From contig CADBWK010000019.1 of the NCBI GenBank assembly GCA_902798385.1, positions 1 to 33,585 on the forward strand: a stretch of 33,585 nucleotides of DNA, given 5' to 3'. The position numbers and the translations under genes are program-made. Source of the DNA: an uncultured Bacteroidales bacterium. GTDB taxonomy: Bacteria; Bacteroidota; Bacteroidia; Bacteroidales; Paludibacteraceae. Numbering within the stretch: position 1 is the stretch's first letter; every line of letters starts with the position of its first letter. A model generated the notes under the pieces. That model had not been told where the DNA came from and did no database searches. It worked only from the letters and a program-made list of their open reading frames with translations. Positions 1,727 through 31,529 of this stretch are shown here, in pieces.

Positions 1727-1744
1727 TTTTTTGTAGTATCTTTG
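1713..1744 (+). promoter_or_regulatory. Bacteroidota-type promoter for prmC
   Basis: TTTG at 1713-1716, a 20-bp spacer and TATCTTTG at 1737-1744. The -33 box lies inside the first codons of ribD. Transcription should start about 7 bases later, at or within the GTG of prmC, so the message is probably leaderless. Confidence 0.8.
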
Positions 1745-1748
1745 CAGC

Positions 1749-2561
1749 GTGAAACAACTGATTAACGATATTACCGCTCAATTGGAGACCGTTTACCCGA
1801 AAGACGAAGCGCAAGCTTTGGCTTGGTGGATCATAGAGGAATCAACCGGTCTCAGTCGCTCACAACTGCTTTGCGACTGCAAAGGTACAAAAAATATTTC
1901 AAACTTGCAAGAGATAATTGCACGTTTATTGCATTTTGAGCCGATTCAATACATTTTCGGGCATACTTTATGGTGCGGGCTAGACCTGAAAGTTACTCCT
2001 GCCACCCTCATTCCCCGTCCGGAAACCGCCGAACTCGTTGATAGAATAACCAATAACCAATTACCAATTACCAATTGCCGCGTCCTGGATATAGGAACGG
2101 GTAGCGGTTGCATCGCAATTGCGCTCAAGAAAGCCCATCCGGAATGGCAAGTAACCGGCATAGACATCTCCCCCGAAGCGATTGAAGTGGCGCGAGAGAA
2201 TGCTCGCCGCAATAAGGTAGAAATCGATTTCCAAGTAGCCGATATTTTCTCCGATGGAATCGGGACTTTTGACATCGTTGTGAGTAATCCGCCATACATC
2301 TGCGAGCACGAGAAAGATTCGATGCGACCGAACGTATTGGAGTACGAACCGGCAACTGCATTGTTTGTTCCGGATAACGACCCGCTCCGTTTCTATCGCC
2401 GCATCGCTGAATTGAAATTAGGCAAGTTCCTTTTCTTTGAGATCAATGAGGCCTATCCGCAAGAACTGTCTGATAAGCTGGGCGAATTAGGTTATACCGA
2501 CATACAAATAACGAATGACATCTATGGCAAACCGCGAATTATCGAAGGCCGAATGGCTTGA
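1749..2561 (+). CDS. prmC: Release factor glutamine N5-methyltransferase PrmC
   Basis: PrmC methylates the glutamine of the GGQ motif in class 1 peptide release factors, using S-adenosylmethionine. The 270-residue protein has the N-terminal helical domain, PRPETAELV near 90-97, the SAM-binding DIGTGSG at 114-120 and the catalytic NPPY at 180-183. The start is a GTG at 1749; homology to the usual N-terminus supports it, although the promoter predicts a transcript beginning almost on that codon. Residues 100-110 (ITNNQLPITNC), just before the SAM motif, come from five heptanucleotide repeats and are not part of the usual fold. The 3' end overlaps recX by about 40 bases, so the two are probably cotranscribed. 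Confidence 0.95.
   Translation: MKQLINDITAQLETVYPKDEAQALAWWIIEESTGLSRSQLLCDCKGTKNISNLQEIIARLLHFEPIQYIFGHTLWCGLDLKVTPATLIPRPETAELVDRITNNQLPITNCRVLDIGTGSGCIAIALKKAHPEWQVTGIDISPEAIEVARENARRNKVEIDFQVADIFSDGIGTFDIVVSNPPYICEHEKDSMRPNVLEYEPATALFVPDNDPLRFYRRIAELKLGKFLFFEINEAYPQELSDKLGELGYTDIQITNDIYGKPRIIEGRMA
2045..2079. repeat. In-frame heptanucleotide tandem repeat inside prmC
   Basis: Five contiguous 7-base units: AATAACC, AATAACC, AATTACC, AATTACC, AATTGCC. They encode the ITNNQLPITN segment between two conserved PrmC motifs. Confidence 0.95.
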
Positions 2562-2958
2562 TAAATGTGAGGCCTATTGTGCGAAATCCGAACACTGCGC
2601 AGCGGATGTTCTGCGTAAATTATATGAGTGGCAAGCACCCGCAGATTTCTCCGATGAAATCGTGGAAAGTCTCTACTCCAACGACTTCCTGAACGATGCC
2701 CGTTTTTGTCATGCGTACGTGCATGATAAGGTCGAATATCAAAGCTGGGGACGCTTGAAGATCCAAGCCGGACTTCGTGCACTCGATCTGCCGGATTCCG
2801 ACATTCGCGATGCCCTCGCTACCATCGATGAAAGTGTTTATTTCAAAAATCTCCGTGCTCTTATCGTTTCCCGCAAGTCCGATCCTGAAGAGAAACGCCT
2901 CCGTTTCCTCGCCCAGAGAGGTTTCACGTACGAAGAAATCTCAAAATGTAGTAAATAA
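2515..2958 (+). CDS. recX: RecX family regulatory protein
   Basis: RecX proteins bind RecA filaments and limit recombinase activity. This 147-residue protein has the helical three-repeat layout of the family: YCAKSEHCAADVLRKL, then DARFCHAYVHDKVEYQSWGRLKIQAGLRA with the characteristic F-A-x-x-Y and WG-x-x-KI elements, and a C-terminal EEKRLRFLAQRGFTYEEI repeat. It starts inside the end of prmC; ATG codons at 2515 and 2524 are both possible and the second leaves slightly less overlap. No ribosome binding site separates them. recA is not in the window. Confidence 0.85.
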   Translation: MTSMANRELSKAEWLDKCEAYCAKSEHCAADVLRKLYEWQAPADFSDEIVESLYSNDFLNDARFCHAYVHDKVEYQSWGRLKIQAGLRALDLPDSDIRDALATIDESVYFKNLRALIVSRKSDPEEKRLRFLAQRGFTYEEISKCSK

Positions 2959-2989
2959 ATGCTATTTTTTGCAAAAAAATAACGAAATA

Positions 2990-3021
2990 TTTGGTCAATT
3001 CAAATTTTTGTAGTAATTTTG
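2990..3021 (+). promoter_or_regulatory. Bacteroidota-type promoter for rpsO
   Basis: TTTG at 2990-2993, 20-bp spacer, TAATTTTG at 3014-3021. It leaves a leader of about 90 bases before rpsO. That is room for S15 autoregulation, but I could not identify a convincing pseudoknot. Confidence 0.8.
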
Positions 3022-3116
3022 CAGCCGCTTTTGGAGAAAAGCATTAAATCCGGCGAAGTTGTGATCCTCGCGATGCTGCTTTAGCCGACATTGTTAAACT
3101 AAAAAAGAAGACAGAA

Positions 3117-3386
3117 ATGTATTTAACTTCTGAGAAGAAAGCTGAGTTGTTCGCTAAATACGGCAACGACGCAAAGAACACCGGTTCTGCAGAGAGCCAA
3201 ATCGCATTGTTTACTTTCCGTATCAACCACCTGACGGAGCACTTGAAAGAGAACCGTAAGGACTTCGGTACGGAGCGCGCTTTGACCGCATTGGTAGGTA
3301 AGCGTCGTCGTATGCTGGATTACTTGAAGGCAAAAGACATCGAGCGCTACCGTGCAATCATCAAAGAACTGGGTATTCGTAAATAA
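3117..3386 (+). CDS. rpsO: 30S ribosomal protein S15
   Basis: S15 binds the central domain of 16S rRNA early in small-subunit assembly. The 89-residue protein is the normal length and carries TGSAESQIALFTFRINHLTEHLK and the C-terminal GKRRRMLDYL with the family's RNA-contacting residues. It is a single-gene unit between its own promoter and a hairpin at 3412-3441 that also contains the hflX promoter. Confidence 0.98.
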   Translation: MYLTSEKKAELFAKYGNDAKNTGSAESQIALFTFRINHLTEHLKENRKDFGTERALTALVGKRRRMLDYLKAKDIERYRAIIKELGIRK

Positions 3387-3411
3387 TTTTACGGAAAATT
3401 TCAGAAAAGAA

Positions 3412-3441
3412 TGGCATATGCTTGCATATGTCATTTTTTTT
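3412..3441 (+). terminator. Terminator after rpsO, overlapping the hflX promoter
   Basis: Stem 3412-3420 with 3425-3433 (one G-U pair), loop CTTG, then eight T at 3434-3441. The loop is also the -33 box of the next promoter and the T run is part of its spacer. Confidence 0.7.
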
Positions 3442-3452
3442 GTGTATCTTTG
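3421..3452 (+). promoter_or_regulatory. Bacteroidota-type promoter for hflX-hpt
   Basis: CTTG at 3421-3424, 20-bp spacer, TATCTTTG at 3445-3452. It implies a leader of about 9 bases before the ATG at 3468. Confidence 0.8.
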
Positions 3453-3467
3453 CACCCGCAAAGATGT

Positions 3468-4709
3468 ATGATTGAGATTAAGCCGTACATAGAGCATGCT
3501 GTTTTGGTGGGATTGATCACGCCTAATCAACCGGAAGAGCGCACAAAAGAGTATCTGGATGAGTTGGCCTTTCTGGCTGACACACACGGCATTGTGCCGG
3601 TTAAACGATTCACGCAGCGATTAGATCAACCGAACTCTACGACCTATGTCGGAGAAGGTAAGTTAGAGGAAGTACGGCAGTATATTATTGACCGCGAGCA
3701 TAGCGAAGAGCCGGTAGATGTGGTTATTTTCGATGATGAGTTGAGTCCGCGGCAGATACGCAACCTCGAGAAAGCGATCAATCACAGGGAGAAGCATCCG
3801 GCTAATGTGCGGGTGATAGACCGAACGATTCTTATTCTGGAGATTTTCCTGCAGCGCGCCCAGACTTCCTACGCGAAGACGCAGGTCGAGATGGCGCATC
3901 TGCAGTATATGTTGCCGCGTTTGACGCGTATGTGGAGTCACTTGGACAGGCAACGAGGCGGTGGTGGTACGAACCGTGGTATGGGTGAGACGCAGATAGA
4001 GGCGGATAAGCGGGTTATCGGTCAGCGCATCGCGTTGCTGCGAGAGCAGTTGAAGACGATCGACAAACAGATGGCGACGCAGCGTCAGCACCGGGGTAAG
4101 ATGGTTCGTGTGGCGCTGGTGGGCTATACGAACGTGGGGAAGAGCACGCTGATGAACCTGCTGAGTAAGAGTGAGGTCTTTGCGGAGAATAAGCTGTTTG
4201 CGACGCTGGATACAACGGTACGCAAAGTGACGATCGAGAACCTGCCGTTCCTCTTGAGCGATACGGTAGGGTTTATCCGGAAACTACCGCATCATTTGGT
4301 GGAGTCCTTCAAATCGACGCTGGATGAGGTGCGTGAGGCGGACTTGCTGATTCATGTGGTAGATATCAGCCATCCGAACTTTGAGGAGCAGTACGAGGTG
4401 GTGCAGCAGACGATTGCCGACATATGCAAAGAGGACAAACCGACGGTGGTGGTGTTCAACAAAGTGGACGCATTCACCTATGTGCCGAAAGAGGAGGATG
4501 ACTTGACGCCGATCCAGCGGGAGAACTTGTCTTTGAATGATTTAGAGAAGAGTTGGATGGCGCGTTTGGGTGAAGATTGTATCTTTATCTCGGCGAAGAA
4601 TAAGGAAAATATTGACGCGCTGCGCGCGCTGATGTACGAACGCATCAAGGCGATACATGTGCAGCGTTATCCGTATAATGATTTTCTTTTTCAAAACTAC
4701 GATGTATGA
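3468..4709 (+). CDS. hflX: GTPase HflX
   Basis: HflX is a ribosome-associated GTPase that splits stalled 70S ribosomes under stress. The 413-residue protein has the N-terminal HflX domain (TYVGEGKLEEV), the linker with RGGGGTNRGMGETQIE, then a G domain with GYTNVGKSTL near residues 218-227, DTVGFIRKLPHHLV and NKVD. An upstream in-frame ATG at 3411 exists, but it lies before the promoter and inside the terminator hairpin, so the ATG at 3468 is preferred. The stop codon overlaps the start of hpt by four bases (ATGA), indicating cotranscription. Confidence 0.95.
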   Translation: MIEIKPYIEHAVLVGLITPNQPEERTKEYLDELAFLADTHGIVPVKRFTQRLDQPNSTTYVGEGKLEEVRQYIIDREHSEEPVDVVIFDDELSPRQIRNLEKAINHREKHPANVRVIDRTILILEIFLQRAQTSYAKTQVEMAHLQYMLPRLTRMWSHLDRQRGGGGTNRGMGETQIEADKRVIGQRIALLREQLKTIDKQMATQRQHRGKMVRVALVGYTNVGKSTLMNLLSKSEVFAENKLFATLDTTVRKVTIENLPFLLSDTVGFIRKLPHHLVESFKSTLDEVREADLLIHVVDISHPNFEEQYEVVQQTIADICKEDKPTVVVFNKVDAFTYVPKEEDDLTPIQRENLSLNDLEKSWMARLGEDCIFISAKNKENIDALRALMYERIKAIHVQRYPYNDFLFQNYDV

Positions 4710-5290: not shown

Positions 5291-7072
5291 ATGAACGAAG
5301 AATTGAAAAAAGTAATGGAGGTTGCTAAGGTGTGGACCAAGGAGCCTTTTGATGCTGAGACTCGTGCTCAAGTGAAAGCGATGATGGAAGCAGAGGACAA
5401 GACCGAATTGATCGATGCTTTCTATCGTACGTTGGAATTCGGTACCGGCGGTCTGCGCGGTATCATGGGTCCGGGTACCAACCGCATGAACAAGTACATC
5501 GTAGCCATGGCAACCCAGGGTTACGCCAACTACATGCTGAAAGTGCAGAAAGAAGGCGGTTTCCAAAACGTACAGAACGGTCGCGTAGCTGTGGTGGTTG
5601 GTCATGACTGCCGTAACAACGGTCGTCTCTTCGCGGAGACTGTGGCAAACATCTTCTCGGCTAACGGCATCAAGGTGTATCTGTTCGAGAGCCTTCGTCC
5701 TACTCCGGAGTGTTCGTTTGCTATCCGTCACCTCAAATGTCAAGGCGGTGTGAACGTTACCGCTTCGCACAACCCCAAAGAGTATAACGGTTACAAGGCA
5801 TACTGGGAGGATGGTTCTCAGGTGCTCCAACCGCATGATCAAGGTATCATCAACGAGGTGAACAAAGTGACCCTCGCGGACGTAAAATGGGAGGCTAATA
5901 AGGATCTCATCGAGATTATCGGAGGCGAGATGGACTACGATTACATGATGGCGGTTAAGAGCGTCATGATCGACCAGGATTCTATCCTTCGTCAGAAAGA
6001 CCTCAATATCGTTTACACCCCGATGCACGGTGCAGGTCGTCAGATCGTTCCGATGTGTCTCCGCAGCTGGGGCTTCCAGAACATCCACGTAGTACCCGAG
6101 CAGATGGTAATCGACGGTAACTTCCCGACGGTTGTTTCCCCGAACCCGGAGAACGCTGAGGCTATGACCCTCGGTATGAAACTCGGTACGAAGTTAGGCG
6201 CTGACCTCGTGATTGCTTCGGATCCGGATGCAGACCGTATCGCTATCGTTTGCCGTAACGACAAGGGCGAGTGGGTGATCATCAATGGTAACCAGACCAA
6301 TATCATGTACCACTACTACATCATCAACAACATGAAACGTCTGGGCAAGCTGCGCGATGATATGTATATCGTGAAGACCATCGTTACCTCGGAGTTGATT
6401 CGCAAGATTGCTGATGCGCAGGGTGTTACGCTGACCGATGAATATACTGGCTTTAAGTGGATTGCTAACCGCATCCGTATGTGGGAAGGCAAACGCAAAT
6501 ATATCGGTGGTGGTGAGGAGAGCTTCGGCTTCCTGCCGTACGACGCTGTTCGCGATAAATGCTCGCCTTCGGCTATCTGCTTGATCTGCGAGATCGCTGC
6601 GTATGCAAAAGACAACGGTATGACGCTGTACGACTACCTGCTTAAGATCTACGAGGACTATGGTTTCCAGAAAGAGACCACGATCAACGTCGTTCGTCCG
6701 GGTAAGACGGGCGCTGAGGAGATCGCACAGATGATGGTGGACTACCGTGCTAACGCTCCGAAGGAGATCGCCGGTGAGAAGGTCATCAAGATCAAAGACT
6801 TCAAGCTCCTCAAGCAACAAGAGCTCAAGGACGGCAAGTGGGTGGAGAGCCCGATCGAGATGCCGCTGAACGCTACGAGCAATGTACTCCAGTACTTCAC
6901 CGAGGGTGGCCTCAAGGTTTCCGTTCGTCCGTCAGGAACCGAACCGAAGATCAAGTTCTACTTCGAGATCCCGGTTAAATCCGGCAAACCGTTCACCGGT
7001 GCTGACTACGAGCGCTGCACCGCTGAGGCGGATGCCCGCGTTCCGGCCATCAAGGCAAGCCTTGGATTGTAA
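5291..7072 (+). CDS. Alpha-D-phosphohexomutase (phosphoglucomutase/phosphomannomutase)
   Basis: The enzyme moves phosphate between C6 and C1 of a hexose, feeding sugar nucleotide synthesis. The 593-residue protein shows the four family sites in order: TASHNPK with catalytic Ser159, the metal loop DPDADR at 311-316, the sugar loop GGGEES at 406-411, and the phosphate loop RPSGTEPK near 546. The length matches the long phospho-sugar mutase group (PgcA-like) rather than AlgC-type enzymes. Sugar preference (glucose or mannose) cannot be read from sequence. It lies 39 bases after hpt, with no recognisable promoter, and ends at a strong bidirectional terminator. Codons are highly biased, suggesting high expression. 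Confidence 0.93.
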   Translation: MNEELKKVMEVAKVWTKEPFDAETRAQVKAMMEAEDKTELIDAFYRTLEFGTGGLRGIMGPGTNRMNKYIVAMATQGYANYMLKVQKEGGFQNVQNGRVAVVVGHDCRNNGRLFAETVANIFSANGIKVYLFESLRPTPECSFAIRHLKCQGGVNVTASHNPKEYNGYKAYWEDGSQVLQPHDQGIINEVNKVTLADVKWEANKDLIEIIGGEMDYDYMMAVKSVMIDQDSILRQKDLNIVYTPMHGAGRQIVPMCLRSWGFQNIHVVPEQMVIDGNFPTVVSPNPENAEAMTLGMKLGTKLGADLVIASDPDADRIAIVCRNDKGEWVIINGNQTNIMYHYYIINNMKRLGKLRDDMYIVKTIVTSELIRKIADAQGVTLTDEYTGFKWIANRIRMWEGKRKYIGGGEESFGFLPYDAVRDKCSPSAICLICEIAAYAKDNGMTLYDYLLKIYEDYGFQKETTINVVRPGKTGAEEIAQMMVDYRANAPKEIAGEKVIKIKDFKLLKQQELKDGKWVESPIEMPLNATSNVLQYFTEGGLKVSVRPSGTEPKIKFYFEIPVKSGKPFTGADYERCTAEADARVPAIKASLGL

Positions 7073-7087
7073 CACGACCCAAGTAAT

Positions 7088-7119
7088 AAAAGAAGGCTCG
7101 CACTTGCGAGCCTTCTTTT
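7088..7119. terminator. Bidirectional terminator between convergent genes
   Basis: A perfect 15-bp inverted repeat (7088-7102 with 7105-7119) with a two-base centre, A-rich on one side and T-rich on the other. It serves the mutase gene from the left and the AsmA-like gene from the right. Confidence 0.92.
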
Positions 7120-7120
7120 G

Positions 7121-8749
7121 TTAATCCTTAATGGGCACGTATTTCTTATTGGACACTTGCTTGTGTACAAACAGTCCGGGGAGAAGCGTCTCCATCGCGC
7201 CGTCGATACACGGTCCGAACAGATACAGCGGGAAGGGTTTCCATTCGTTGCGCTTCCACGATACCTCATACGCACGCGGGTGGATATCTACGGCCGTCGG
7301 GTTGCTCTTCGGCAGAAGCGTATTAGCCAGCGTCGTAAAGGTCTTCGCGTTCTTGGTCACGATCTTGTAAGGGATGTCATCTTCCTGATAAACCTGTACA
7401 TGAAGCCCGTGATAGAGCATTTTGAAGGTACCGGATGCTTTCTCGCTGTTACCGGTGTACTGGGTCTCTAAATCATCCAACTGCAACTCGCATGTCATAC
7501 CGACGAGCGGGCGAAGGAAGGTGTTCAGATAGTTTGCATTGATATTCGTAGCATGTAGCTTCATTCCGAAATCACACGCTTTGTTCATCGTCATGCTGAA
7601 CGATGCTTTGGCTTGACCCTTCTGGATAGGACAGGTGCCCCCGGCGGTCATGATAGCGCCGCGTTTGTTAGTCACGTTATCTACGGCTGCCTGGATTCCT
7701 TTGAGATGCAGCTCACCACAATTGACATTCGTGCTGGCGAACTCGATATCGATCTTGTTGATATGTGCGTCAACATGGTTGATCATGAAGTGTGCGGGGA
7801 TGGACATCAGGATCTCTTGCGGCATAGCAAACGGCTCTTTCGGCGCGTAGCGCTCATCGCGGAAGATATCCATCGATGCTACTACCACTTTGATTTTGTC
7901 TAATGTGAAGTCCTTGGCCAGAGCTTTGCGAATCGGGTTAAGAGGGGACGTAGCCACGCTCTGTACGGTCATATCCATCCAGGTCACCGGCTCTTTGACC
8001 ATGTCACCTAATTTCTTACGCGGCATCGTGTTGGCGATACGCGTGGTACCAATACGCAATGCGCCTTGGTCGCTATGCTCGATATCATTAGTCTCCAGAC
8101 GCATCATGCCGTCAGGAAGAGTGACCGCTGCATGGCCCAGCGAGAAAGCGTAAACGGAGTCGCAGTACGTGAAGACAGAGTCATATGCCAGATCATGTAC
8201 CGTCAGCGAGCAATCATTAACCTCCAGATCCAGAGGCGTGCGGACGCTGTGCAGCTTGAAATCCGCATCCTTGAGGTGGAAAGCCATCAGTTTGAAGAAA
8301 TCAAACTGGTTATTCGCTTTCTCCAGACCTTTGTCTTTGATTTGCGGGAAACAACGCTCCGGTTGGTTCTCATCCAGCCAAAGCTCTACTTGCGGGTGCT
8401 TGATACGTACGTCGCTGACAAGCAGACGTTTCTTCAACAGCAGCGTATAGAACACACGACCTACGTCCACGCGATCGACGTGTATATCGATGCCGGGAGC
8501 CATTTTATCTTTGCCTTCCTGCTCTCCGCGATACGAGAAATGCAGGTCTGTCACACTCGCTGTACCGCTGAGGAAACGCAGGTGTATGTCACCACAAGAC
8601 GCTTCGCAACCCGGCAGGTCTGCCAGAGATTTGTCCACTTCGCGGTTTACCATGTACGAAACGATGATGTCCGCGCATAAGAATGCGATTCCTAAAATGG
8701 CGATGATGACGCCTAATGTGATTAGGGTGATTTTGCTACCTTTTTTCAT
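7121..8749 (-). CDS. AsmA-like/DUF748-type membrane-anchored periplasmic protein
   Basis: The 542-residue protein begins with a short basic segment and one membrane helix (residues about 7-29), followed by a long beta-rich region without catalytic motifs. The layout (N-terminal anchor, amphipathic strands such as VNREVDKSL, GDIHLRFLSGTASVTDLHFSYRG and KHPQVELWLDENQ) is that of AsmA-like or DUF748-like proteins, which form elongated lipid-transfer or envelope-homeostasis structures in the periplasm. I cannot place it in a particular subfamily. It starts 4 bases after the stop of the tcdA-like gene and is probably in its operon. Confidence 0.65.
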   Translation of the reverse strand: MKKGSKITLITLGVIIAILGIAFLCADIIVSYMVNREVDKSLADLPGCEASCGDIHLRFLSGTASVTDLHFSYRGEQEGKDKMAPGIDIHVDRVDVGRVFYTLLLKKRLLVSDVRIKHPQVELWLDENQPERCFPQIKDKGLEKANNQFDFFKLMAFHLKDADFKLHSVRTPLDLEVNDCSLTVHDLAYDSVFTYCDSVYAFSLGHAAVTLPDGMMRLETNDIEHSDQGALRIGTTRIANTMPRKKLGDMVKEPVTWMDMTVQSVATSPLNPIRKALAKDFTLDKIKVVVASMDIFRDERYAPKEPFAMPQEILMSIPAHFMINHVDAHINKIDIEFASTNVNCGELHLKGIQAAVDNVTNKRGAIMTAGGTCPIQKGQAKASFSMTMNKACDFGMKLHATNINANYLNTFLRPLVGMTCELQLDDLETQYTGNSEKASGTFKMLYHGLHVQVYQEDDIPYKIVTKNAKTFTTLANTLLPKSNPTAVDIHPRAYEVSWKRNEWKPFPLYLFGPCIDGAMETLLPGLFVHKQVSNKKYVPIKD

Positions 8750-8753
8750 GTGA

Positions 8754-9452
8754 TTATAATTTGATTTGTTTGTAAGTATCGTTGATGACGAGGGACGCCA
8801 GGGTTAATCCGAATGCAGCGGTGACCTGCATGAGGCTGCCTCGTGTCTCACATTGTTGTGCTTGTTCGGTCGAGTAGACGCAACGTATCTTCTTGTGCGG
8901 ATATCTATCCAATCGTTTCATCCGTGCCCGAACGGCTTTGGCGAGTGCGTCGCCTTGGATGGACATCAACTCGCCGGTCGTGACCTGGGTCGGATCGAAC
9001 CGCAGCGCAGCGCCCATGGAAGAGAAGGTCTTCAACGCGCGTACGCGTGACGCGTATAATATAAGGTCTGTCTTGTCCGGAACGCTGTCGATGGCATCGA
9101 TGACATAGTCATAATCCGCTAATCCTTTTTCCGCTAACCACTCGTTGTTAACCATCTCCGGAATAGCGGTGATCTCCGCTTCGGGATTAATGGATAGCAG
9201 CCGTTCGCGGAGCGCGAAGACCTTCGGCTGACCGAGCGTGGCGCGCGTAGCAGGCAGTTGACGATTGATATTGGACGGTTGTACCGTGTCGCCATCGACG
9301 ATGGTCAGATGGGTCAGTCCGGTACGAATCAGACACTCTGCCGCCCAAGAGCCTACGCCTCCGACACCGAAGAGGATGACGCGTTTGGTGCGCAGGGCTT
9401 GCATAGCCTCTGCACCCAATAATACTTCGCTTCGAGAGAAGAAATCGTCCAT
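8754..9452 (-). CDS. tcdA: tRNA threonylcarbamoyladenosine dehydratase (ThiF/E1-like)
   Basis: TcdA-type proteins use ATP to cyclise t6A at position 37 of ANN-decoding tRNAs. The 232-residue protein has the E1-like nucleotide site GVGGVGSWAAE near residues 29-39, DGDTVQPSNINRQ and VIDAIDSVPDK, and a late STEQAQQ segment, as in the YgdL/TcdA group. The ATG at 9452 fits the family N-terminus (MDDFFSRSEVLLG) and lies about 20 bases after a good promoter; an upstream in-frame ATG at 9494 would precede transcription. MoeB or ThiF are less likely because the CxxC zinc pairs are not evident. Confidence 0.88.
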   Translation of the reverse strand: MDDFFSRSEVLLGAEAMQALRTKRVILFGVGGVGSWAAECLIRTGLTHLTIVDGDTVQPSNINRQLPATRATLGQPKVFALRERLLSINPEAEITAIPEMVNNEWLAEKGLADYDYVIDAIDSVPDKTDLILYASRVRALKTFSSMGAALRFDPTQVTTGELMSIQGDALAKAVRARMKRLDRYPHKKIRCVYSTEQAQQCETRGSLMQVTAAFGLTLASLVINDTYKQIKL

Positions 9453-17447: not shown

Positions 17448-17453
17448 CGCCTG

Positions 17454-17485
17454 CAAAGGTACTGCTTTTTTTTGATATGTGCAAA
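17454..17485 (-). promoter_or_regulatory. Bacteroidota-type promoter for the ssb operon
   Basis: On the minus strand, TTTG at 17485-17482, 20-bp spacer, TACCTTTG at 17461-17454. Confidence 0.8.
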
Positions 17486-17531: not shown

Positions 17532-17563
17532 TTTGCATATCTCTAAAGAAAGCAGTATCTTTG
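17532..17563 (+). promoter_or_regulatory. Bacteroidota-type promoter for the lipoprotein/radical SAM operon
   Basis: TTTG at 17532-17535 followed by CATAT, 20-bp spacer, TATCTTTG at 17556-17563. Divergent from the ssb promoter, 46 bases away. Confidence 0.82.
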
Positions 17564-17588
17564 CACCGGATTTCAAAAAACACGTACT

Positions 17589-18038
17589 ATGAAAGCGAAG
17601 TTTTTACAGTGCATCAATGCTTTGTTAGAGGCAGCTATTATCGGGTTAATCGGTACTTCTTTCAGTAACTGTCGTACCAAGTATGGAGTACCTGAATTGG
17701 AATACGGATCACCTTATGCCACATATGAGGTGTCCGGTGTAATAACCGATGAAGAGGAGAAACCCGTCGCTAACATACGCGTAACCGTGCAAAACGATGG
17801 TTACCAAATATTACCGGAAGCGTATTCAGAGGAAGATGGGCTGTATTCCGCGAAAAATGACAGAGCGTTTCCTTTTTCCCGTGTCGAGATTATTGCGGAA
17901 GATACATCGGGCGTGTATTCCCCTGATACCGCACGTGTAGACGTACGGTATGATCGCACGGGAGTTTCCTCAAGTGACAATTGGAATGAAGGAAGCGCAT
18001 CTATTCTACAAGATTTCCAATTGAAGAAGAAAAAATGA
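17589..18038 (+). CDS. Lipoprotein A of the rSAM/lipoprotein system
   Basis: The 149-residue protein has a signal peptide with a lipobox-like end and Cys28 (TSFSNC), then KYGVPELEYGSPYATYEVSG and a small beta-sandwich domain of carboxypeptidase-regulatory type (GVITDEEEKPVANIRVTV) ending DFQLKKKK. It overlaps the radical SAM gene by four bases. Such pairs are catalogued, as I recall, as NCBIfam TIGR04134 (lipoprotein) with TIGR04133 (enzyme); the chemistry is unknown. The YG motifs close to the lipidated cysteine are the family's hallmark and the obvious candidate target (inference). It is homologous to the lipoprotein at 19641-20063: DTSGVYSPDTARVDV there reads DTSGIYEPDSVRVEV. Confidence 0.85.
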   Translation: MKAKFLQCINALLEAAIIGLIGTSFSNCRTKYGVPELEYGSPYATYEVSGVITDEEEKPVANIRVTVQNDGYQILPEAYSEEDGLYSAKNDRAFPFSRVEIIAEDTSGVYSPDTARVDVRYDRTGVSSSDNWNEGSASILQDFQLKKKK

Positions 18039-19105
18039 ATCTGCGCCTCAAAATATCGTTGTGGTTAGAGAGTATACGGCGGCAGAATCTGAAAAAGATT
18101 CATCCGTTGCAGCAACTCTTCTGGGAGTCTACGTTACGTTGTAACGTTCATTGTCTGCATTGTGGAAGCGATTGTATTTCTTCCGTTCAGACACCGGATA
18201 TGCCGGCAGCTGATTTTCTGAAAGTCATTGATACCGAAGTGACTCCGCATGTTGATCCGCATAAAGTGCTTGTCATCATCTCCGGCGGTGAGCCGTTGAT
18301 GCGTAAGGACTTGGCGGATATCGGCCGGGCGCTATGCCAGCGCGGGTATCCCTGGGGTATGGTAACGAACGGTTTGGCACTGACGGAGAAAAAGTTCCGT
18401 GAGTTGCGTGCAGCAGGTCTGCGTTCTATCACGATTTCCTGTGATGGTCTTGAGAAAGATCATGTATGGCTTCGTCAGCATCCTTTGGCTTTTGAGGGAG
18501 CGGTGCGTGCTATCAAGTTATGCGCGGCAGAAAAGAAACTGGCTTGGGATGTGGTTACATGCGTTAATCAGCGTACGATTGATCATCTGTCGGAAATACG
18601 GGAGATGCTATGGGATTTGGGTGTACGTGACTGGCGTGTGTTCGGTATCGACCCTATGGGTCGTGCGGCCGATAATCCGGAGTTGATTTTGACGGATGAG
18701 CAGTTCGGGAAGCTGATGGATTTCATCGTTTCCGAACGTGAGGCGGGACGTCATGTGTCGTACTCGTGCGAGGGTTATTTAGGTACGTACGAAGGCCGCG
18801 TGCGCGATCATTTATATCAATGTTCGGCAGGTATCAGCGTGGCGTCTATTCTGATCGACGGTTCGATCTCAGCCTGTACGTCCATTCGCGGCAAGTACTA
18901 TCAGGGAAATATCTACAAAGACTCGTTCTGGGATGTCTGGGAGAACGGTTTTCAGCCGTACCGTGACCGTTCCTGGATGAAGGAATTGGCGCCCTGCAAG
19001 GACTGCAAAGCGTTTTCGTTCTGCGAAGGGAACGGCATGCATCTCCGTCGTGAAGACGGCAGTCTCATGCTTTGCCATCTCCACCGGTTAGGACAAGACC
19101 GATAG
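18035..19105 (+). CDS. Radical SAM/SPASM enzyme of the rSAM/lipoprotein system
   Basis: The 356-residue enzyme has the CX3CX2C cluster motif at Cys36, Cys40 and Cys43 (plus Cys47), GGEPL at 84-88, and a C-terminal SPASM domain with cysteines at 263, 281, 321, 324, 330 and 347, enough for auxiliary Fe-S clusters. SPASM radical SAM enzymes typically modify peptides or proteins. It is cotranscribed with lipoprotein A (ATGA overlap), whose precursor is the likely substrate. It would act in the cytoplasm, before export of the lipoprotein. No terminator with a T run follows; only a short palindrome spans its stop codon. Confidence 0.9.
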   Translation: MNLRLKISLWLESIRRQNLKKIHPLQQLFWESTLRCNVHCLHCGSDCISSVQTPDMPAADFLKVIDTEVTPHVDPHKVLVIISGGEPLMRKDLADIGRALCQRGYPWGMVTNGLALTEKKFRELRAAGLRSITISCDGLEKDHVWLRQHPLAFEGAVRAIKLCAAEKKLAWDVVTCVNQRTIDHLSEIREMLWDLGVRDWRVFGIDPMGRAADNPELILTDEQFGKLMDFIVSEREAGRHVSYSCEGYLGTYEGRVRDHLYQCSAGISVASILIDGSISACTSIRGKYYQGNIYKDSFWDVWENGFQPYRDRSWMKELAPCKDCKAFSFCEGNGMHLRREDGSLMLCHLHRLGQDR

Positions 19106-19458
19106 ATCGGTTCGAAGCTTACATCCTGTGCCATTCGGACAGCTTGAACCCGTGCTTCGTGACGTTTGTGCGGATGAACGGGTGTGAGAAAGAGTTGAAA
19201 GACGCGGCGACCGTGCCAAACGGTGTGACCGCGTTTGTTTTGTGCCCGGCAAATGATCCAAAAACCACATGCTTCAGCCTCTTTGAGGGTATTGACGCGG
19301 CAGGTATAACTTTGAATGAGAGGATTAGTAAAGATGATCTCGATGCAGTTAGGCGATTTTCGACTGCGCCGATGCACTATTTGTGCCCCCAAAGTGTTCT
19401 TGATGGTGAAAAATACCTCGTATAGAACGGGGTTTATGTGGTTGTTTCTTCTGTTCAT
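18952..19458 (-). CDS. Uncertain ORF downstream of a strong promoter
   Basis: Reading leftward from an ATG at 19458, a frame of 168 residues (MNRRNNHINPVLYEVFFTIK and onward) remains open to 18952. I recognise no family; it is rich in arginine and histidine, with no signal peptide. In favour: a full promoter at 19600-19569 points at it and nothing else. Against: its last 154 bases run antisense through the radical SAM gene, no ribosome signal is visible, and a plus-strand frame of similar size exists. The real product could be a shorter protein, a truncated gene or a non-coding RNA. Confidence 0.35.
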   Translation of the reverse strand: MNRRNNHINPVLYEVFFTIKNTLGAQIVHRRSRKSPNCIEIIFTNPLIQSYTCRVNTLKEAEACGFWIICRAQNKRGHTVWHGRRVFQLFLTPVHPHKRHEARVQAVRMAQDVSFEPIYRSCPNRWRWQSMRLPSSRRRCMPFPSQNENALQSLQGANSFIQERSRYG

Positions 19459-19507
19459 TTTAGTGTTCGTAAGTATGGTGTTACAGGAGTGTGTATAAAT
19501 CACGGGA

Positions 19508-19555
19508 TATATACAAAGTATATATAGGGTGCAGGATGATGCGCTCCATCTCCTG
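19508..19555 (-). promoter_or_regulatory. Two hairpins in the leader of the minus-strand transcript
   Basis: Just after the predicted start (about 19561), bases 19532-19555 form a 9-bp hairpin with one bulge (CAGGA/TCCTG then GATG/CATC around a 5-base loop). A second, TATATAC/GTATATA, is at 19508-19524. Neither has a T run. Confidence 0.55.
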
Positions 19556-19568
19556 TTTAAATCTGCTG

Positions 19569-19600
19569 CAAAGATACGAAAAGTTTTTGGAATATGCAAA
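19569..19600 (-). promoter_or_regulatory. Bacteroidota-type promoter reading into an unannotated transcript
   Basis: On the minus strand, TTTG at 19600-19597 followed by CATAT, 20-bp spacer, TATCTTTG at 19576-19569. As good a match as those of known genes. Confidence 0.78.
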
Positions 19601-19640
19601 TTTTGCTGACCAAAAATATTAAAAAATGCAAAAAATGCGT

Positions 19641-20063
19641 TTATTCCTTTTTTCTTAGTTGGAAATCCTGTTTGACAACGAAAGAGCCTTCTGACCATTT
19701 TGTTTTAGTAGCTGGATCAACTACCACTTCCACACGTACCGAATCGGGTTCGTAGATGCCGGATGTGTCTCGGGCAACTATATCTATGGAATCAACGGTA
19801 GGGAAGTAGCCTTGTCGAATCAGGTAGTTGCCTTCTTTATCGGAATATTTCCCGCAGACCGGGCATCCTCGATATTTGACAGTCACTTCGACGTTTTCTA
19901 TTGGTTCGTTCCCCTCGTTTGTTATTTCGCCGGATGCTTCAAATTCAAAATTGGGTTCATAAGTTGTCCCATAGCAAGCCGCAAAGGTGAAAGCGACGCC
20001 GGTAAGCATGCAGAGCTTAATGCACATACGGAGGATTTTATCCCACAACAATCGAGTTTTCAT
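19641..20063 (-). CDS. Lipoprotein B, paralogue of the rSAM-associated lipoprotein
   Basis: The 140-residue protein starts at the ATG at 20063, 27 bases after its promoter's -7 box. A signal peptide ends at Cys30 (FTFAAC) and is followed immediately by YG, then NFEFEASGEITNEGNEPIENVEVTV, a CPVCG loop and the ending VVKQDFQLRKKE. It matches lipoprotein A across the whole mature domain. The Cys-Tyr-Gly start is the form I associate with the rSAM/lipoprotein family, so it is probably a second substrate of the radical SAM enzyme (inference). It has its own promoter, divergent from the TPR/HTH regulator. The extra CxxC pair is absent from lipoproteins A and C. Confidence 0.85.
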   Translation of the reverse strand: MKTRLLWDKILRMCIKLCMLTGVAFTFAACYGTTYEPNFEFEASGEITNEGNEPIENVEVTVKYRGCPVCGKYSDKEGNYLIRQGYFPTVDSIDIVARDTSGIYEPDSVRVEVVVDPATKTKWSEGSFVVKQDFQLRKKE

Positions 20064-20089
20064 AGTTCCTGATCTTTTGAAATCCGGTG

Positions 20090-20121
20090 CAAAGGTACTA
20101 CTTTTTTCGGAGATATGCAAA
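20090..20121 (-). promoter_or_regulatory. Bacteroidota-type promoter for lipoprotein B
   Basis: On the minus strand, TTTG at 20121-20118 followed by CATAT, 20-bp spacer, TACCTTTG at 20097-20090. Confidence 0.8.
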
Positions 20122-20160
20122 TTTCTGACTTGGGAAAAAAGTTGGGAAAGAGCAAAAGAA

Positions 20161-20192
20161 TTTGTGTATGTCGCAAAAATTATGTATCTTTG
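20161..20192 (+). promoter_or_regulatory. Bacteroidota-type promoter for the TPR/HTH regulator operon
   Basis: TTTG at 20161-20164, 20-bp spacer, TATCTTTG at 20185-20192, giving a leader of about 9 bases. The 39 bases between this -33 box and that of lipoprotein B would be the place for a shared operator. Confidence 0.8.
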
Positions 20193-20207
20193 CAGCGTGA
20201 AATAATC

Positions 20208-21440
20208 ATGAACAACAAACGGTACATAGTGTGGGCGCTATTGTTGTGTCTCCTTGCTTGCGGAAGACCGACTGCTGAAAAATATTATCATCAAGGGCGT
20301 ACTCATCGGGCACAAGGGGAAGCGGTAGCAGCGATGAATTCGTTCATAGCAGCCACGCGTGTGTGCTCGAACGAGTATGTGTTTATAGGTCGTTCGTACA
20401 GCAACATGGCCAACATGTGCCGGATAGGCGAGCGTCATGACTTGGCGTATACGTTGTACGGGCAATCGGCACAGCAGTTTCTGTCCGCCAAAGACAGCTT
20501 GCTTTTCGCCTATGCCCTGAATAATATGGCATGGGAGCAAGCGGTACAAGGAAATAAACAGGCGGCTGAGACACTAGTTGATTCGGCGGTTTTTGTATGT
20601 TCTGACATCGCGGTTGTTTGCAAAACGATAGAGACTCGGGCGGCTGCTTGCCTGTATACAGGAGAGTATGATTCCGTGCTTAGTTATCTGCAAAAAGTTC
20701 CGATGAAATCGGGAGATCTTATCTATTGTTCGATTCTGCGAGCTCAGGCATTTACATTGCTCGGACAATGCGATTCGGCTTTGTCGTATGCCCGCCAAAT
20801 AGCGGTTCAAACGGATAATCCGCGCTATCTGGACGATGCCTATTATATCTTGATACATTGCGACAGCTGTGCCGATGCAGATGAGGTGCGAGATCTGGCG
20901 ACAATTCGCACCGACATACAACGCTCGCTGGAGCGGAATAATCCGGAATGGACGCAAGCGATGTTGTTGGCAGAGGAATCTTTAGCGGCTCCAATAAGTC
21001 CGATGAAATCGGTTGTTTTTGCTCTTTTAGCGATTGCCTTTCTGTTGATAATATGGATGATATATTCGTTTGTATCCCGCAAGCGAAGACAGAGGACGGC
21101 CGAAGAGGAGCTGGAGCGACAATGTGTGCTGTTGTGTAATAGCGCAGATATTAAAAACGAATTAAAATGGGATGATTATACGCAGTTCTGTGATGTATGT
21201 AATAAACGTTTGTTAGGAATCGCCGAGGAACTGCAGATGCGCGGATTAAACGAACGAGAGGTGAGACGGAGCGTCCTATTTATGATCGGTCTTTCGTATG
21301 CTGAGATAGCCGATATTCTCTATCGTGCGGAAAGCGGGATAGGAAAGGATAAGTATAGTATAGCAAAACGCTTAGGTGTCAGCGTCAAAGAGTTGCAAAA
21401 CACCCTGAAGGAGATGGCGTGTAAAAAAGAAAATGCGTAA
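20208..21440 (+). CDS. Membrane-bound TPR transcriptional regulator with lipoprotein-type signal
   Basis: The 410-residue protein has an N-terminal signal ending in a lipobox (CLLAC, Cys18), a helical tetratricopeptide-type region (about 30-255), one membrane helix (about 269-288) followed by RKRRQR, and a C-terminal region (about 347-405) with LSYAEIADILYRAES, GKDKYSIAKRLGV and KELQNTL, a helix-turn-helix pattern seen in Bacteroidales TPR regulators. The likely topology is a periplasmic sensor and cytoplasmic DNA-binding tail. The ATG at 20208 fits the promoter; an earlier in-frame ATG at 20115 precedes it. It is divergent from lipoprotein B and overlaps the next gene by 8 bases, so it probably regulates this cluster (inference). 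Confidence 0.78.
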   Translation: MNNKRYIVWALLLCLLACGRPTAEKYYHQGRTHRAQGEAVAAMNSFIAATRVCSNEYVFIGRSYSNMANMCRIGERHDLAYTLYGQSAQQFLSAKDSLLFAYALNNMAWEQAVQGNKQAAETLVDSAVFVCSDIAVVCKTIETRAAACLYTGEYDSVLSYLQKVPMKSGDLIYCSILRAQAFTLLGQCDSALSYARQIAVQTDNPRYLDDAYYILIHCDSCADADEVRDLATIRTDIQRSLERNNPEWTQAMLLAEESLAAPISPMKSVVFALLAIAFLLIIWMIYSFVSRKRRQRTAEEELERQCVLLCNSADIKNELKWDDYTQFCDVCNKRLLGIAEELQMRGLNEREVRRSVLFMIGLSYAEIADILYRAESGIGKDKYSIAKRLGVSVKELQNTLKEMACKKENA

Positions 21441-21945
21441 ATGGATGGTTTACATAGGTTTGTTGTTTAGCGCTTGTCTGATGGCATCGCAGAACACGAT
21501 CCAGATTCCACTTTACATGTCGGAGTTCCGCGGTTTGCCTGCCGATAACCCAACGGGAAGTACGCCAGATCCGACTGATCCGACGCAGTTTCGCGCATCG
21601 CTCACAGGCAACACGCTTACGATAGAAACGCAGGTAGGTGAGGTATCGTATGTGGTTGTGACGGAGACGCAAAGTGAGCGTAACAATGAAGATTATTTCT
21701 TCGGCTTGAGTGATGGTGTCATTACTTGTCCAATCACGCGGCAGGGGCATTATACGATTTATATCGGTCATTGGAAGACGGATTTCAAAGGCGACATATA
21801 TGTGTACGATTTGAGTATCTGGGATTTGTGTGGCCGGCTTGTCCAGAATCAAACGATTGATGTGCCGGCTTTAAATCCGGGCAGTTATGCGATCTATCTT
21901 AGGACTACCTTCGGTAAAACCAGTTCCAAAATACGCAAACTATGA
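21433..21945 (+). CDS. DUF3244-like secreted protein with a sorting-domain-like end
   Basis: The 170-residue protein has a signal peptide (about residues 1-19), then IQIPLYMSEFRGLP, a short proline/threonine linker, and a beta-rich domain (about 50-170) ending LNPGSYAIYLRTTFGKTSSKIRKL. The first part resembles DUF3244; the last 40 residues resemble the Type IX secretion A-type sorting tail (G-x-L, then LxxGxY and GK). I cannot tell whether it is exported that way; no other T9SS component is in the window. It overlaps the regulator upstream by 8 bases and lipoprotein C by four bases. Confidence 0.65.
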   Translation: MRKWMVYIGLLFSACLMASQNTIQIPLYMSEFRGLPADNPTGSTPDPTDPTQFRASLTGNTLTIETQVGEVSYVVVTETQSERNNEDYFFGLSDGVITCPITRQGHYTIYIGHWKTDFKGDIYVYDLSIWDLCGRLVQNQTIDVPALNPGSYAIYLRTTFGKTSSKIRKL

Positions 21946-22361
21946 AAAGATATATCTTATATTGGATGATTCTAGTCGTCTGCACGCTTAGCGGATGTGC
22001 AAAGAGCGACCATGAACCTAATCTTCCTTCTTCTCATGAGTTTGAAGGTGCGCCCAGATTGGTGATCTGCGGACAGGTTCAGAACGAGTCGGGAGAAGCG
22101 TTGGAAGGCATCTATGTTGCCGTGTATGGCGTGCGGACAGAAAACGAAAATGATCTGGCTGGTTATAACTACGCGTTGACGGATACTGCCGGAGAATACA
22201 CGATCATACGTTACCGCGGTCGAGAGACGCCTTCTTCGATAACCGTAGTGGTGACCGATCCGTATGAAGTGTATAGTGCACAGGACGAAGACTTTGATGT
22301 CCGCTACGATTCGGGTGGTAACGGCTTCGTTACTGCAGATTTTGTGCTAAAAGCGCAATAA
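21942..22361 (+). CDS. Lipoprotein C, similar to the rSAM-associated lipoproteins
   Basis: The 139-residue protein has a signal peptide and lipobox (TLSGC, Cys19), an acidic linker (KSDHEPN), and the same beta-sandwich domain as lipoproteins A and B: ICGQVQNESGEALEGIYVAVYG, DTAGEYTIIRYRG, VVVTDPYEVYSAQDEDFDVRYD and a closing ADFVLKAQ. It has no Tyr-Gly pair after the cysteine, so it may be a diverged relative that is not modified. It is the third gene of the TPR/HTH regulator operon (ATGA overlap with the DUF3244-like gene). I see no T-run terminator in the 100 bases after it. Confidence 0.78.
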   Translation: MKRYILYWMILVVCTLSGCAKSDHEPNLPSSHEFEGAPRLVICGQVQNESGEALEGIYVAVYGVRTENENDLAGYNYALTDTAGEYTIIRYRGRETPSSITVVVTDPYEVYSAQDEDFDVRYDSGGNGFVTADFVLKAQ

Positions 22362-29525: not shown

Positions 29526-29975
29526 ATGAAAAGTTTTAGTGAAATGACCATCGCGTTGGCAAGTGACCACGCAGGTTTTGCGCTCAAGCAGAAAGTACAG
29601 TTGTTCTTGGAGGATAACGGTGCTAAAGTAAAGGATTTTGGTTGCTACAGCACCGAGAGTTGTGACTATCCTGACTTTGCGCACCCTCTGGCAGAAGCCG
29701 TTGAGAAGGGTGAGTTTGAGTTCGGTATTGTTATCTGCTCGACCGGTAACGGTATCTGCATGACGGCGAACAAACACCAGGGTATCCGTGCTGCATTGTG
29801 CTGGGAACCCCGATTGGCAGAATTGGCTCGTGCACACAACAATGCGAATGTATTGGGTCTGCCGGCTAATTTCGTTTCCGCTGTTCAGGCTCTGGATATC
29901 GTTCGTACCTTCTTCCAAACGGATTTTGAAGGCGGGCGCCACGAGCGTCGTATCAACAAGATTGCGATCCATTAA
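29526..29975 (+). CDS. rpiB: Ribose 5-phosphate isomerase B
   Basis: RpiB interconverts ribose 5-phosphate and ribulose 5-phosphate. The 149-residue protein has IALASDHAGFALKQ near 10, DYPDFAHPLAEAV, the active-site loop ICSTGNGICMTANKHQGIRAALCW and HNNANVLGLPAN. Length is normal for the family. RpiB homologues can also be allose or galactose 6-phosphate isomerases; the residues here fit RpiB. Confidence 0.93.
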   Translation: MKSFSEMTIALASDHAGFALKQKVQLFLEDNGAKVKDFGCYSTESCDYPDFAHPLAEAVEKGEFEFGIVICSTGNGICMTANKHQGIRAALCWEPRLAELARAHNNANVLGLPANFVSAVQALDIVRTFFQTDFEGGRHERRINKIAIH

Positions 29976-29991
29976 GTATATAGGTTCGCGC

Positions 29992-30936
29992 GTGCGCAAC
30001 GCTTGGCGTTGCTACGTTAGTTATGCACTGAGCCTCTTTGGCTCGGTGCGTATCGTTCATAGGCCTATGTTTGTCTCCGTCGAACCCGCGGCTATCTGTC
30101 AGTTACACTGTCCGGAGTGTCCGGTGGGGATGCGTAAGGGAGAACGATTAGCGGATAGAGTTGAGCGGTTTATGTCACGCGAAGTGTGGGAGCGGGTCTT
30201 GGAGCAGATCGCTCCTTATGCCCACACGGTGCAGTTCTATTTTCAAGGCGAACCTCTCCTTAATAGAGACCTGCCGCAGATGATTCGCGAGGCGCACGAG
30301 CGGGGACTCTATACGATCGTGAGCACGAACGCGCAGGCGTTGACAATGGAGATGGCGGAGGAGCTGGTGAAGGCAGGCTTGAGTAAGATTATCGTGTCGA
30401 TGGATGGCCTGACAGAAGAGACCTACGCGGCGTATCGCGTGGGAGGAAGTTTGGAACAATGTACGCATGCTCTGTCTTGCTTAAGGGAAGCCAAAGAACG
30501 TCTGCGCGGAGGAACGATCATTGAGTTACAATGCTTACGTTTGCGCTCGAACGAGCACGAATGGAAAGAATTCCAAAAGCGTTATAAGGCATTCGGAGCG
30601 GACAGGCTGGTGTTTAAAACCGCGCAGTTGTACGACTATTCGGATGGTCATCCGCTGATGCCTTCGGACGAGCGGTATAGCCGTTATACGAAGGGAGTGG
30701 ACGGACATTATCACCGCAAACCGATAGGACGTGGTTGTCTTCGTGTATGGAGCGGCGTGGTGATCACGACCACCGGAGAGGTCTTGCCGTGCTGTTATGA
30801 CAAGGCGCATGCACATGCATATGGGAATATAATGAAAGAGTCATTGGAGACTCTCTTTGGTAATGAGCGGGCGCTCGCTTTCCGTAAAGCCGCGCTCCAA
30901 CAAAGTCCGGATATATGCAAGCAATGTTGGAAATAA
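29992..30936 (+). CDS. Radical SAM/SPASM domain protein
   Basis: The 314-residue protein, from a GTG at 29992 (an ATG at 30067 would remove much of the N-terminus), has the CX3CX2C motif at Cys36, Cys40 and Cys43 within PAAICQLHCPECPVG, FQGEPLLN, then STNAQ and IVSMDG, and a SPASM-like end with CLRVWSGVVIT, LPCCYDKAHA and CKQCW. It resembles radical SAM proteins of Bacteroidales that I recall as uncharacterised. Substrate unknown; no small peptide precursor was seen next to it. It follows rpiB by 16 bases and overlaps the MBL gene by 13 bases. It is not close in sequence to the lipoprotein-linked enzyme at 18035. Confidence 0.82.
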   Translation: MRNAWRCYVSYALSLFGSVRIVHRPMFVSVEPAAICQLHCPECPVGMRKGERLADRVERFMSREVWERVLEQIAPYAHTVQFYFQGEPLLNRDLPQMIREAHERGLYTIVSTNAQALTMEMAEELVKAGLSKIIVSMDGLTEETYAAYRVGGSLEQCTHALSCLREAKERLRGGTIIELQCLRLRSNEHEWKEFQKRYKAFGADRLVFKTAQLYDYSDGHPLMPSDERYSRYTKGVDGHYHRKPIGRGCLRVWSGVVITTTGEVLPCCYDKAHAHAYGNIMKESLETLFGNERALAFRKAALQQSPDICKQCWK

Positions 30937-31529
30937 AGACATTTGAGTTTGGTCCTTTTGCAACCAATATGTACATCGTATCGGATGAGGCGGGCAATGC
31001 CCTGCTGATCGATCCGGCATGCTCGAATGCGTACGAGCAGCAGACGCTATATCGCTACGTGCAAGAGAATCATCTGAACATTCAGGCGATTATCGCGACG
31101 CATGGTCATCTGGATCATTTATGGGGTGCTAAATGGGCATGTGAGCAGTGGCATACGCCGGTGATGATACATGAGGCGGACATCCCCATGGCGCAGGCGA
31201 TGCAGCAGCAATACAACTTATTCGGTATCCGTGCCACGGCAGAGTCCTTTCCCATAGAACCGCTGCCGGAATCTATTCCTTTCTTTCAGGTGCTTCACAC
31301 CCCTGGGCACACTCCGGGTTCGATATGTCTCTATCGCTCGGAAGAAGGGCTTTTGCTATCGGGTGACACCCTCTTTCGGATGGGGTACGGTCGAACCGAT
31401 CTACCAGGTGGTCATATGGGCCAATTGATGGAATCACTTGAGACGCTCTTTACGCTACCTTCCGGCGTACGCGTTTATCCGGGGCATGGCGAATTCACCA
31501 CGATCGGTGCAGAAAATAATAGGTGGTAA
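30924..31529 (+). CDS. MBL-fold metallo-hydrolase
   Basis: A 201-residue glyoxalase-II-like hydrolase with THGHLDHLWG (HxHxDH near residue 60), the second metal segment LHTPGHTPGSICLY, LSGDTLF and PGHGEFTTIGAENN. This form, without extra domains, is common in bacteria and hydrolyses thioesters or related esters; the substrate is unknown. An in-frame ATG at 30915 is also available; the start at 30924 gives less overlap with the upstream gene. A terminator follows at 31572-31604. Confidence 0.9.
   Translation: MLEIKTFEFGPFATNMYIVSDEAGNALLIDPACSNAYEQQTLYRYVQENHLNIQAIIATHGHLDHLWGAKWACEQWHTPVMIHEADIPMAQAMQQQYNLFGIRATAESFPIEPLPESIPFFQVLHTPGHTPGSICLYRSEEGLLLSGDTLFRMGYGRTDLPGGHMGQLMESLETLFTLPSGVRVYPGHGEFTTIGAENNRW

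Follow-up and report, generated by a model that had tools for sequence, protein, structure and literature searches.

A radical SAM/lipoprotein locus of Bacteroidota and its YGxP motif, a candidate site of splice-type maturation

The NCBIfam models TIGR04133 and TIGR04134, so far catalogued as hypothetical, describe a radical S-adenosylmethionine (SAM)/SPASM enzyme and its partner lipoprotein. In a different system, the enzyme PlpX takes tyramine out of Xaa-Tyr-Gly to leave an alpha-keto amide, and the ribosomally synthesized and post-translationally modified peptide (RiPP) recognition element protein is PlpY (as given in the available part of PMC11002830). The natural PlpXY targets are MYG and LYG; a ..RPLYGLPI tag in FtsZ was not accepted at either of two sites tried, and longer or differently placed GYGLPI tags in FtsZ were accepted (available part of PMC10533398). 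The spliceotide products are called protease inhibitors (excerpts of PMC11117315 and PMC10373908). Here we describe an expanded TIGR04133/TIGR04134 locus whose lipoproteins carry a YGxP motif resembling the splice target. The locus lies in a 33,585-nucleotide stretch of DNA (the window) from an uncultured Bacteroidales bacterium, which is a gut or rumen organism.

Our literature search returned no paper naming TIGR04134, TIGR04133 or "radical SAM-associated putative lipoprotein"; Scott et al. 2022 may cover part of this subject. Likewise, no paper was found that combines four of the six terms lipoprotein, splicease, Bacteroidetes, radical SAM, YGxP and tyramine. Neither "lipoprotein" nor TIGR04133 appears in the available part of a survey of RiPPs from Bacteroidales (PMC10352776).

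The first-pass annotation of the window assigned the pair of genes at 17589-19105 to this catalogued system, and profile scores agree. The enzyme reaches 525 bits against TIGR04133 (cut-off 425), and the adjoining gene, which overlaps it by 4 bases, encodes a TIGR04134 lipoprotein that we call A. The features of the pair are as follows.

17589-18038 (+): A, lipoprotein with signal peptide, lipobox Cys28, stalk and beta-domain (TIGR04134, 86.8 bits)
17679-17693 (+): KYGVP (A residues 31-35), the first of two putative modification sites (sequence, motif statistics)
17700-17714 (+): EYGSP (A residues 38-42), the other putative modification site (sequence, A-type alignment)
18035-19105 (+): radical SAM/SPASM enzyme (TIGR04133, 525 bits)
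18140-18163 (+): CxxxCxxC SAM-cluster cysteines C36, C40 and C43, inside CxHCGS (enzyme alignment)
18773-18793 (+): GYLGTYE, enzyme segment resembling nif11_3/GDL enzymes (enzyme alignment)

A search of 150 related genomes recovered the enzyme in 77. The pair is present in Bacteroides clarus, a commensal in culture (locus L157). For comparison, we compiled 145 enzyme loci, consisting of the window, a second contig of the same genome (C39), 60 stretches from relatives, 3 plasmid records and 80 genome contigs. All were chosen from matches, the 60 stretches coming from listed places and the genome contigs being the best 80 of 580 confirmed. The 134 loci with non-identical enzymes were used for motif counts. 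Within 4 kb of the enzyme, the open reading frames (ORFs) of 130 residues or more include a lipoprotein family that recurs at 64 of these 134 loci; no other family recurs at more than 12. The smaller ORFs (45-129 residues, same strand, within 1 kb) include YG lipoproteins at 33 loci and relatives of a second lipoprotein, B, at 7. Two downstream families of small ORFs (7 and 5 loci) seem by eye to be frames inside other genes. At locus L058 of genome G090 (5907-9011, minus strand), the enzyme frame continues for about 680 residues that include a lipobox-like stretch and HEFGH; because this was seen once, we regard it as a gene fusion or a lost stop.

The first-pass annotation treated the domain shared by the lipoproteins as the trait that follows the enzyme. 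Our counts point instead to the YGxP motif. YG.P occurs in 128 of 200 lipoprotein-like ORFs located within 1.5 kb upstream on the enzyme strand, compared with 17 of the 645 other lipoprotein-like ORFs at the same loci, and 12 of those 17 were judged to be family members lying downstream, on the opposite strand or further off. The Fisher value for this enrichment (7e-79) overstates independence because the loci are related. The motif total of 184 also far exceeds that of 200 shuffles (mean 4.2, maximum 12). Many of the proteins with the motif are short lipopeptides that lack the domain: 85 have mature lengths above 110 residues, 37 have at most 85 and 6 fall between, and none of the 10 short YGxP lipopeptides scanned passes the TIGR04134 cut-off (best 32 bits). 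The enzyme is accompanied by the motif more than by the shared domain. At locus L090 (9007-9750, minus strand), three short YG-site lipopeptides stand in a row before one enzyme.

The motif sits in the mature lipoprotein as XYGxP, usually in the stalk that follows the lipidated Cys, where K, M and E predominate at the position preceding Tyr (K 55, M 48, E 41, L 16, C 9, A 6, V 5, others 4) and the residue there differs between sites in 28 of the 43 multi-site proteins. Substitutions of Tyr are rare (FG.P 2, WG.P 0 and HG.P 0, versus 184 YG.P), and the nine other residues counted in place of Gly amount to 24 in all. In the A-type alignment, one YG (that of EYGSP in A) is invariant in all 18 sequences, and the P after it is at least 90% conserved. 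Counted by locus, 107 of the 132 with 400 or more upstream bases have a YG with P 2-4 residues after the Gly under an automatic rule, and a further 14 have a YG lipoprotein by eye that the lipobox rule missed or that lies downstream or further away. One more locus has CYG with no P, and two have only another YG. These results agree with the earlier suggestion that YG is the likely modification site, and we consider it quite likely that the enzyme modifies YGxP.

Part of the conservation could nevertheless be structural, because the motif often adjoins the domain (YGxPYAxxEVxG). YGxP might then have a structural role in the stalk or be recognized there, for example in sorting or in packing on the domain, and the enzyme would alter another residue or protein. 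We regard this explanation as improbable, given that the motif is found in one to five copies per protein (four at locus L059, five at L080), is present also in short lipopeptides that lack the domain, and is absent from the C-type proteins described below that have it.

Beyond the pair, the window encodes two further lipoproteins, B and C, and two other proteins, R and X, placed as first annotated; R and X overlap by 8 bases, and X and C by 4.

19641-20063 (-): B, lipoprotein with B-family signal peptide and anchor and an A-like beta-domain (TIGR04134, 43.5 bits)
19968-19976 (-): CYG at the lipidated Cys of B, a doubtful site with no xP (sequence)
20208-21440 (+): R, with lipobox, tetratricopeptide repeat (TPR) region, one membrane helix and a weak helix-turn-helix (HTH) (sequence, Pfam)
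21012-21068 (+): strong membrane helix of R, residues 269-287 (sequence analysis)
21433-21945 (+): X, probable secreted small protein of no clear family (weak Por_Secre_tail match, E 0.013)
21942-22361 (+): C, lipoprotein with an A-homologous domain that lacks YGxP (profile comparison)

Membership of the three lipoproteins in TIGR04134 is uneven. A (86.8 bits) and, narrowly, B (43.5 bits) exceed the curated cut-off of 39.8 bits, and C falls below it (22.7 bits, E 8.1e-5). Direct comparison supports the proposed relationship of both to A. A and B align at E 1e-23 with 31% identity, and an A-type profile (18 sequences, B included) matches a C-type profile (6 sequences) at a probability of 98.6 across 130 columns (E 1.4e-15). 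Judged by these profiles, C is a homologue of A despite its low family score. The domains of A, B and C resemble CarboxypepD_reg, with all three under Pfam cut-offs; at E <= 0.01 this family is matched by 14 of the 18 A-type members. One Parabacteroides TIGR04134 lipoprotein of 280 residues (L109, 4138-4980) has a single EYGSP stalk site followed by a beta-domain that is then seemingly repeated.

A and B had both been proposed as substrates. For A, the two sites KYGVP and EYGSP are consistent with this role. B has CYG but lacks YGxP, and it is a doubtful substrate because no xP follows its CYG and several of its relatives have CYA at that place. Contrary to the earlier description, C does contain a YG, within VYGVRT inside its domain, with no xP after it. 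The view of C as a relative that lacks the site stands: YG.P is present in none of the 18 C-type sequences read (7 and 11 in two sets), several of which have YG inside the domain, and the copy on C39 has YGNEP near its end. C therefore serves as a natural control, having the domain and lacking the site.

The source genome (G000; 1.92 Mb in 44 contigs, 74% complete) carries a second collinear set, R-X-C-A-B-E (E being the enzyme), all on one strand at 712-4661 of the 4.8-kb contig C39 (locus L013). Its B-like member is a short lipopeptide. Between the window and C39, the R proteins are 59% identical and the enzymes 86%. The second set may be a paralogue or a stray contig from a relative; the latter is possible because G000 alone, among same-genus genomes with a listed match, has two whole enzyme genes. 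Two other genomes of the genus have one enzyme gene in two pieces.

R, identified at no less than 48% identity, occurs at 18 places among the matches listed. At 11 of these 18, R has the enzyme within about 5 kb (G000 twice, G015, G063, G059, G064, G021, G022, G031, G086 on C60, and G018, where the enzyme is partial at a contig end). At 3 more (G086 on C45, G004 and G002), the stretch read contains A or B without the enzyme, and at 4 (G079, G042, G045 and G027) it contains none of the three; several contigs end close by at the places without an enzyme. C is found at 17 of the 18, always after R and X, and at the eighteenth the contig ends in X. The gene orders are R-X-C-E, R-X-C-A-E or R-X-C-B-E, or else the A and B genes precede R.

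R-X-C might be unrelated to the pair and lie beside it by accident. The four places with no enzyme, A or B would fit this explanation, as would the abundance of R-like proteins of lower identity in these genomes, because of which TPR architecture alone is not specific. However, the enzyme is near R at 11 places and A or B at three others, whereas simple arithmetic for a genome size of about 2 Mb gives a chance of about 0.6% per place, and R-X-C is mixed in order with A, B and E on one strand at L013, L209, L210, L211 and L212. We therefore consider an accidental association quite improbable. Given the second collinear set and the 11 places where R lies near the enzyme, the neighbourhood is real, and this is a recurrent, expanded radical SAM/lipoprotein locus, in line with the first-pass annotation.

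That annotation also listed promoters and proposed control of the set by R as a TPR/HTH regulator. The upstream features are as follows.

17532-17564 (+): promoter-like match before A (TTTGCATAT ... TAnCTTTGC pattern, common in the genome; 1 mismatch)
20089-20121 (-): promoter-like match before B (0 mismatches)
17560-17578 (+): 19-base leader stretch before A, identical to one before B (upstream comparison)
20075-20093 (-): 19-base leader stretch before B, identical to one before A (upstream comparison)

Promoter-like matches precede A and B, but the long pattern (TTTGCATAT, A-tract, TAnCTTTGC) occurs at 160 places in G000 with up to 3 mismatches (reversed control 0), three of them in the window (17453-17485, 17532-17564 and 20089-20121). 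Because the pattern is common in the genome, the idea of a special promoter for the set was dropped. A and B share about 110 upstream bases beyond this pattern (score 142.5, versus 54.5 for the best of 300 shuffles), whereas the score of 56 between A and R is close to that shuffled maximum. A and B are thus probably expressed alike, as judged from this common upstream region. On C39, the R and A promoters are identical across the 33-base pattern. The TPR region and membrane helix of R are confirmed, and its HTH is faint (Pfam Sigma70_r4_2, E 0.0062, under the cut-off). Control of the set by R is not supported as originally written.

Elsewhere in the window, a second radical SAM/SPASM protein (29788-30936, plus strand) is followed by an overlapping frame (30915-31529). 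With 41.5 bits, it falls outside TIGR04133.

The chemistry at YGxP is best approached through the spliceases. A plasmid of the cyanobacterium Nostoc carries a gene for a "nif11-class peptide radical SAM maturase 3" that is preceded by a Nif11 precursor ending LYGLPPELF, and the L080 lipoprotein reads KYGIPPELL. The 71-residue protein encoded after the Nostoc maturase gene is perhaps the counterpart of PlpY. CxHCGS is found in 13 of 13 TIGR04133 rows of the enzyme alignment, 6 of 6 nif11_3/GDL-like enzymes and 0 of 6 from other families; the corresponding counts for G[YF]xGxYE are 11 of 13, 5 of 6 and 0 of 6. Of these two segments, only CxHCGS is present in a radical SAM protein from Agathobacter. 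For a link to spliceases, these segments appear more telling than the TIGR04103 score. TIGR04103 is the best other NCBIfam model for the window enzyme (115.4 bits; cut-off 725, not reached), and it matches 26 of 26 aligned enzymes by small margins alongside many SPASM models. We take PlpX to be a TIGR04103 member; its paper gives IPR026482. Among 296 Bacteroidota genomes, 1 has a TIGR04103 match at E <= 1e-80 (locus L200, with YG peptides resembling those of GDL systems) and 0 exceed the cut-off. No splicease-named entry appeared among the solved structures matched by sequence to the window or Nostoc enzyme (7 distinct sequences each).

Splice chemistry is the best-supported chemistry at YGxP, and we give it about an even chance. 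Several observations weigh against it. The enzyme loci are akin and are not independent tests of the motif, and no YG lipoprotein was seen at 8 of the 132 loci (L058, L061, L065, L071, L074, L094, L136 and L152). The TIGR04103 margin is small (TIGR03913 111.9 and AhbD 109.4 bits), the window and Nostoc enzymes are 26% identical, and in plasmid matches the Nostoc enzyme (110 bits) ranks below the Agathobacter protein of unknown role (142) and the GDL enzymes (117). In a tree with outgroups from plasmids only, TIGR04133 stands beside the nif11_3/GDL clade with a weak joining branch (91/59). The nif11_3 enzyme lacks C245, a cysteine invariant in TIGR04133, and carries CxGGC in its place. The 71-residue Nostoc protein matches no ORF of the 145 loci at E <= 10, the rest of the genomes not being searched, and no other small ORF family convincingly recurs beside the enzyme at these loci. 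Several B relatives have CYA, as noted above. Finally, signal peptides that are better conserved than mature parts in 8 short members of the B family (mean identity 0.79 versus 0.41) fit a leader role, but the excess is slight in other short lipopeptides (0.37 versus 0.32).

Some of these observations would suit an enzyme that acts at the same YGxP site by another Tyr-centred reaction, such as epimerisation, oxidation of the side chain, or cyclophane or ether cross-linking through the Tyr ring. The chemistry of SPASM enzymes varies widely, several other SPASM models score TIGR04133 nearly as well as TIGR04103 does, the cluster ligands are unlike those of the nif11_3 enzyme, and no PlpY-like partner was found at the 145 loci. 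However, XYGxP is the motif of splice precursors, the ring is hardly ever exchanged (Phe 2 and Trp 0 against 184), and Gly, a residue that offers no side chain for a link, is seldom substituted. We hold another Tyr chemistry to be less likely than splicing, but a real possibility. Splice-type maturation of A at XYGxP is, as a whole, the best explanation we have, and we hold it with roughly balanced confidence.

In the mechanism we propose, the enzyme would be a maturase of lipoproteins. Before export, and with the signal peptide as leader, it would act on A, and possibly on B as well, at XYGxP sites in the stalk that is to separate the lipid anchor from the beta-domain. The lipoprotein would next be exported and lipidated, showing reactive ketoamides on its stalk. 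If spliced, a K, M, E or L before YG would adjoin the ketoamide; by analogy with spliceotides, the ketoamides might inhibit proteases, with this residue (K and E in A) as P1. R-X-C would be a linked accessory module, perhaps an envelope sensor, and C an unmodified homologue. Because the motif suggests the site and a related system predicts the product mass, the pair is directly testable in one co-expression.

A broader and more doubtful proposal is that Bacteroidota display membrane-anchored spliceotides: lipoprotein stalks would be spliced by TIGR04133 enzymes at one to five XYGxP sites, with the signal peptide as leader, yielding multi-headed ketoamide protease inhibitors in the periplasm or on the cell surface, whose P1 residue (K, M, E or L) differs per head and which the linked R-X-C envelope module would watch. 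If the splice explanation is right, lipoproteins of common gut and rumen Bacteroidota would contain ribosomally made beta-amino residues, and the present TIGR04134 model would miss part of the substrate family.

Relative to the TIGR04133/TIGR04134 pair, catalogued as hypothetical equivalogs, the window has the same adjacent enzyme and lipoprotein, with A and narrowly B passing the cut-off, and differs in having the second lipoprotein B, the sub-threshold homologue C and the R-X module. Many of the YGxP lipoproteins of relatives fall below the TIGR04134 cut-off because of their small size. PlpXY and the nif11-class maturase 3 systems (TIGR04103) resemble the locus in the XYG of the partner, which reads LYGLP in the Nostoc precursor and in tested tags, and in the CxHCGS and, mostly, G[YF]xGxYE segments of the enzyme. 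They differ in their auxiliary-cluster cysteines, in the PlpY-like partner not found at TIGR04133 loci, and in their leaders, which are Nif11 or nitrile-hydratase-like there and a lipoprotein signal peptide in A; scans of the family library gave no match of A to either leader family. The enzymes of the GDL systems (TIGR03913, DUF1843 peptides) share 48% identity with the Nostoc enzyme and fall in the clade that adjoins TIGR04133. The partners in these systems are small peptides with no signal peptide. At L107, L111, L113 and L200, DUF1843 or DUF1843-like peptides lie beside GDL-type enzymes; 6 of the 10 partner peptides read have YG near the start, and YGxP is present in 0 of those 6. This frequency of YG suggests that GDL-type enzymes may also act on XYG.

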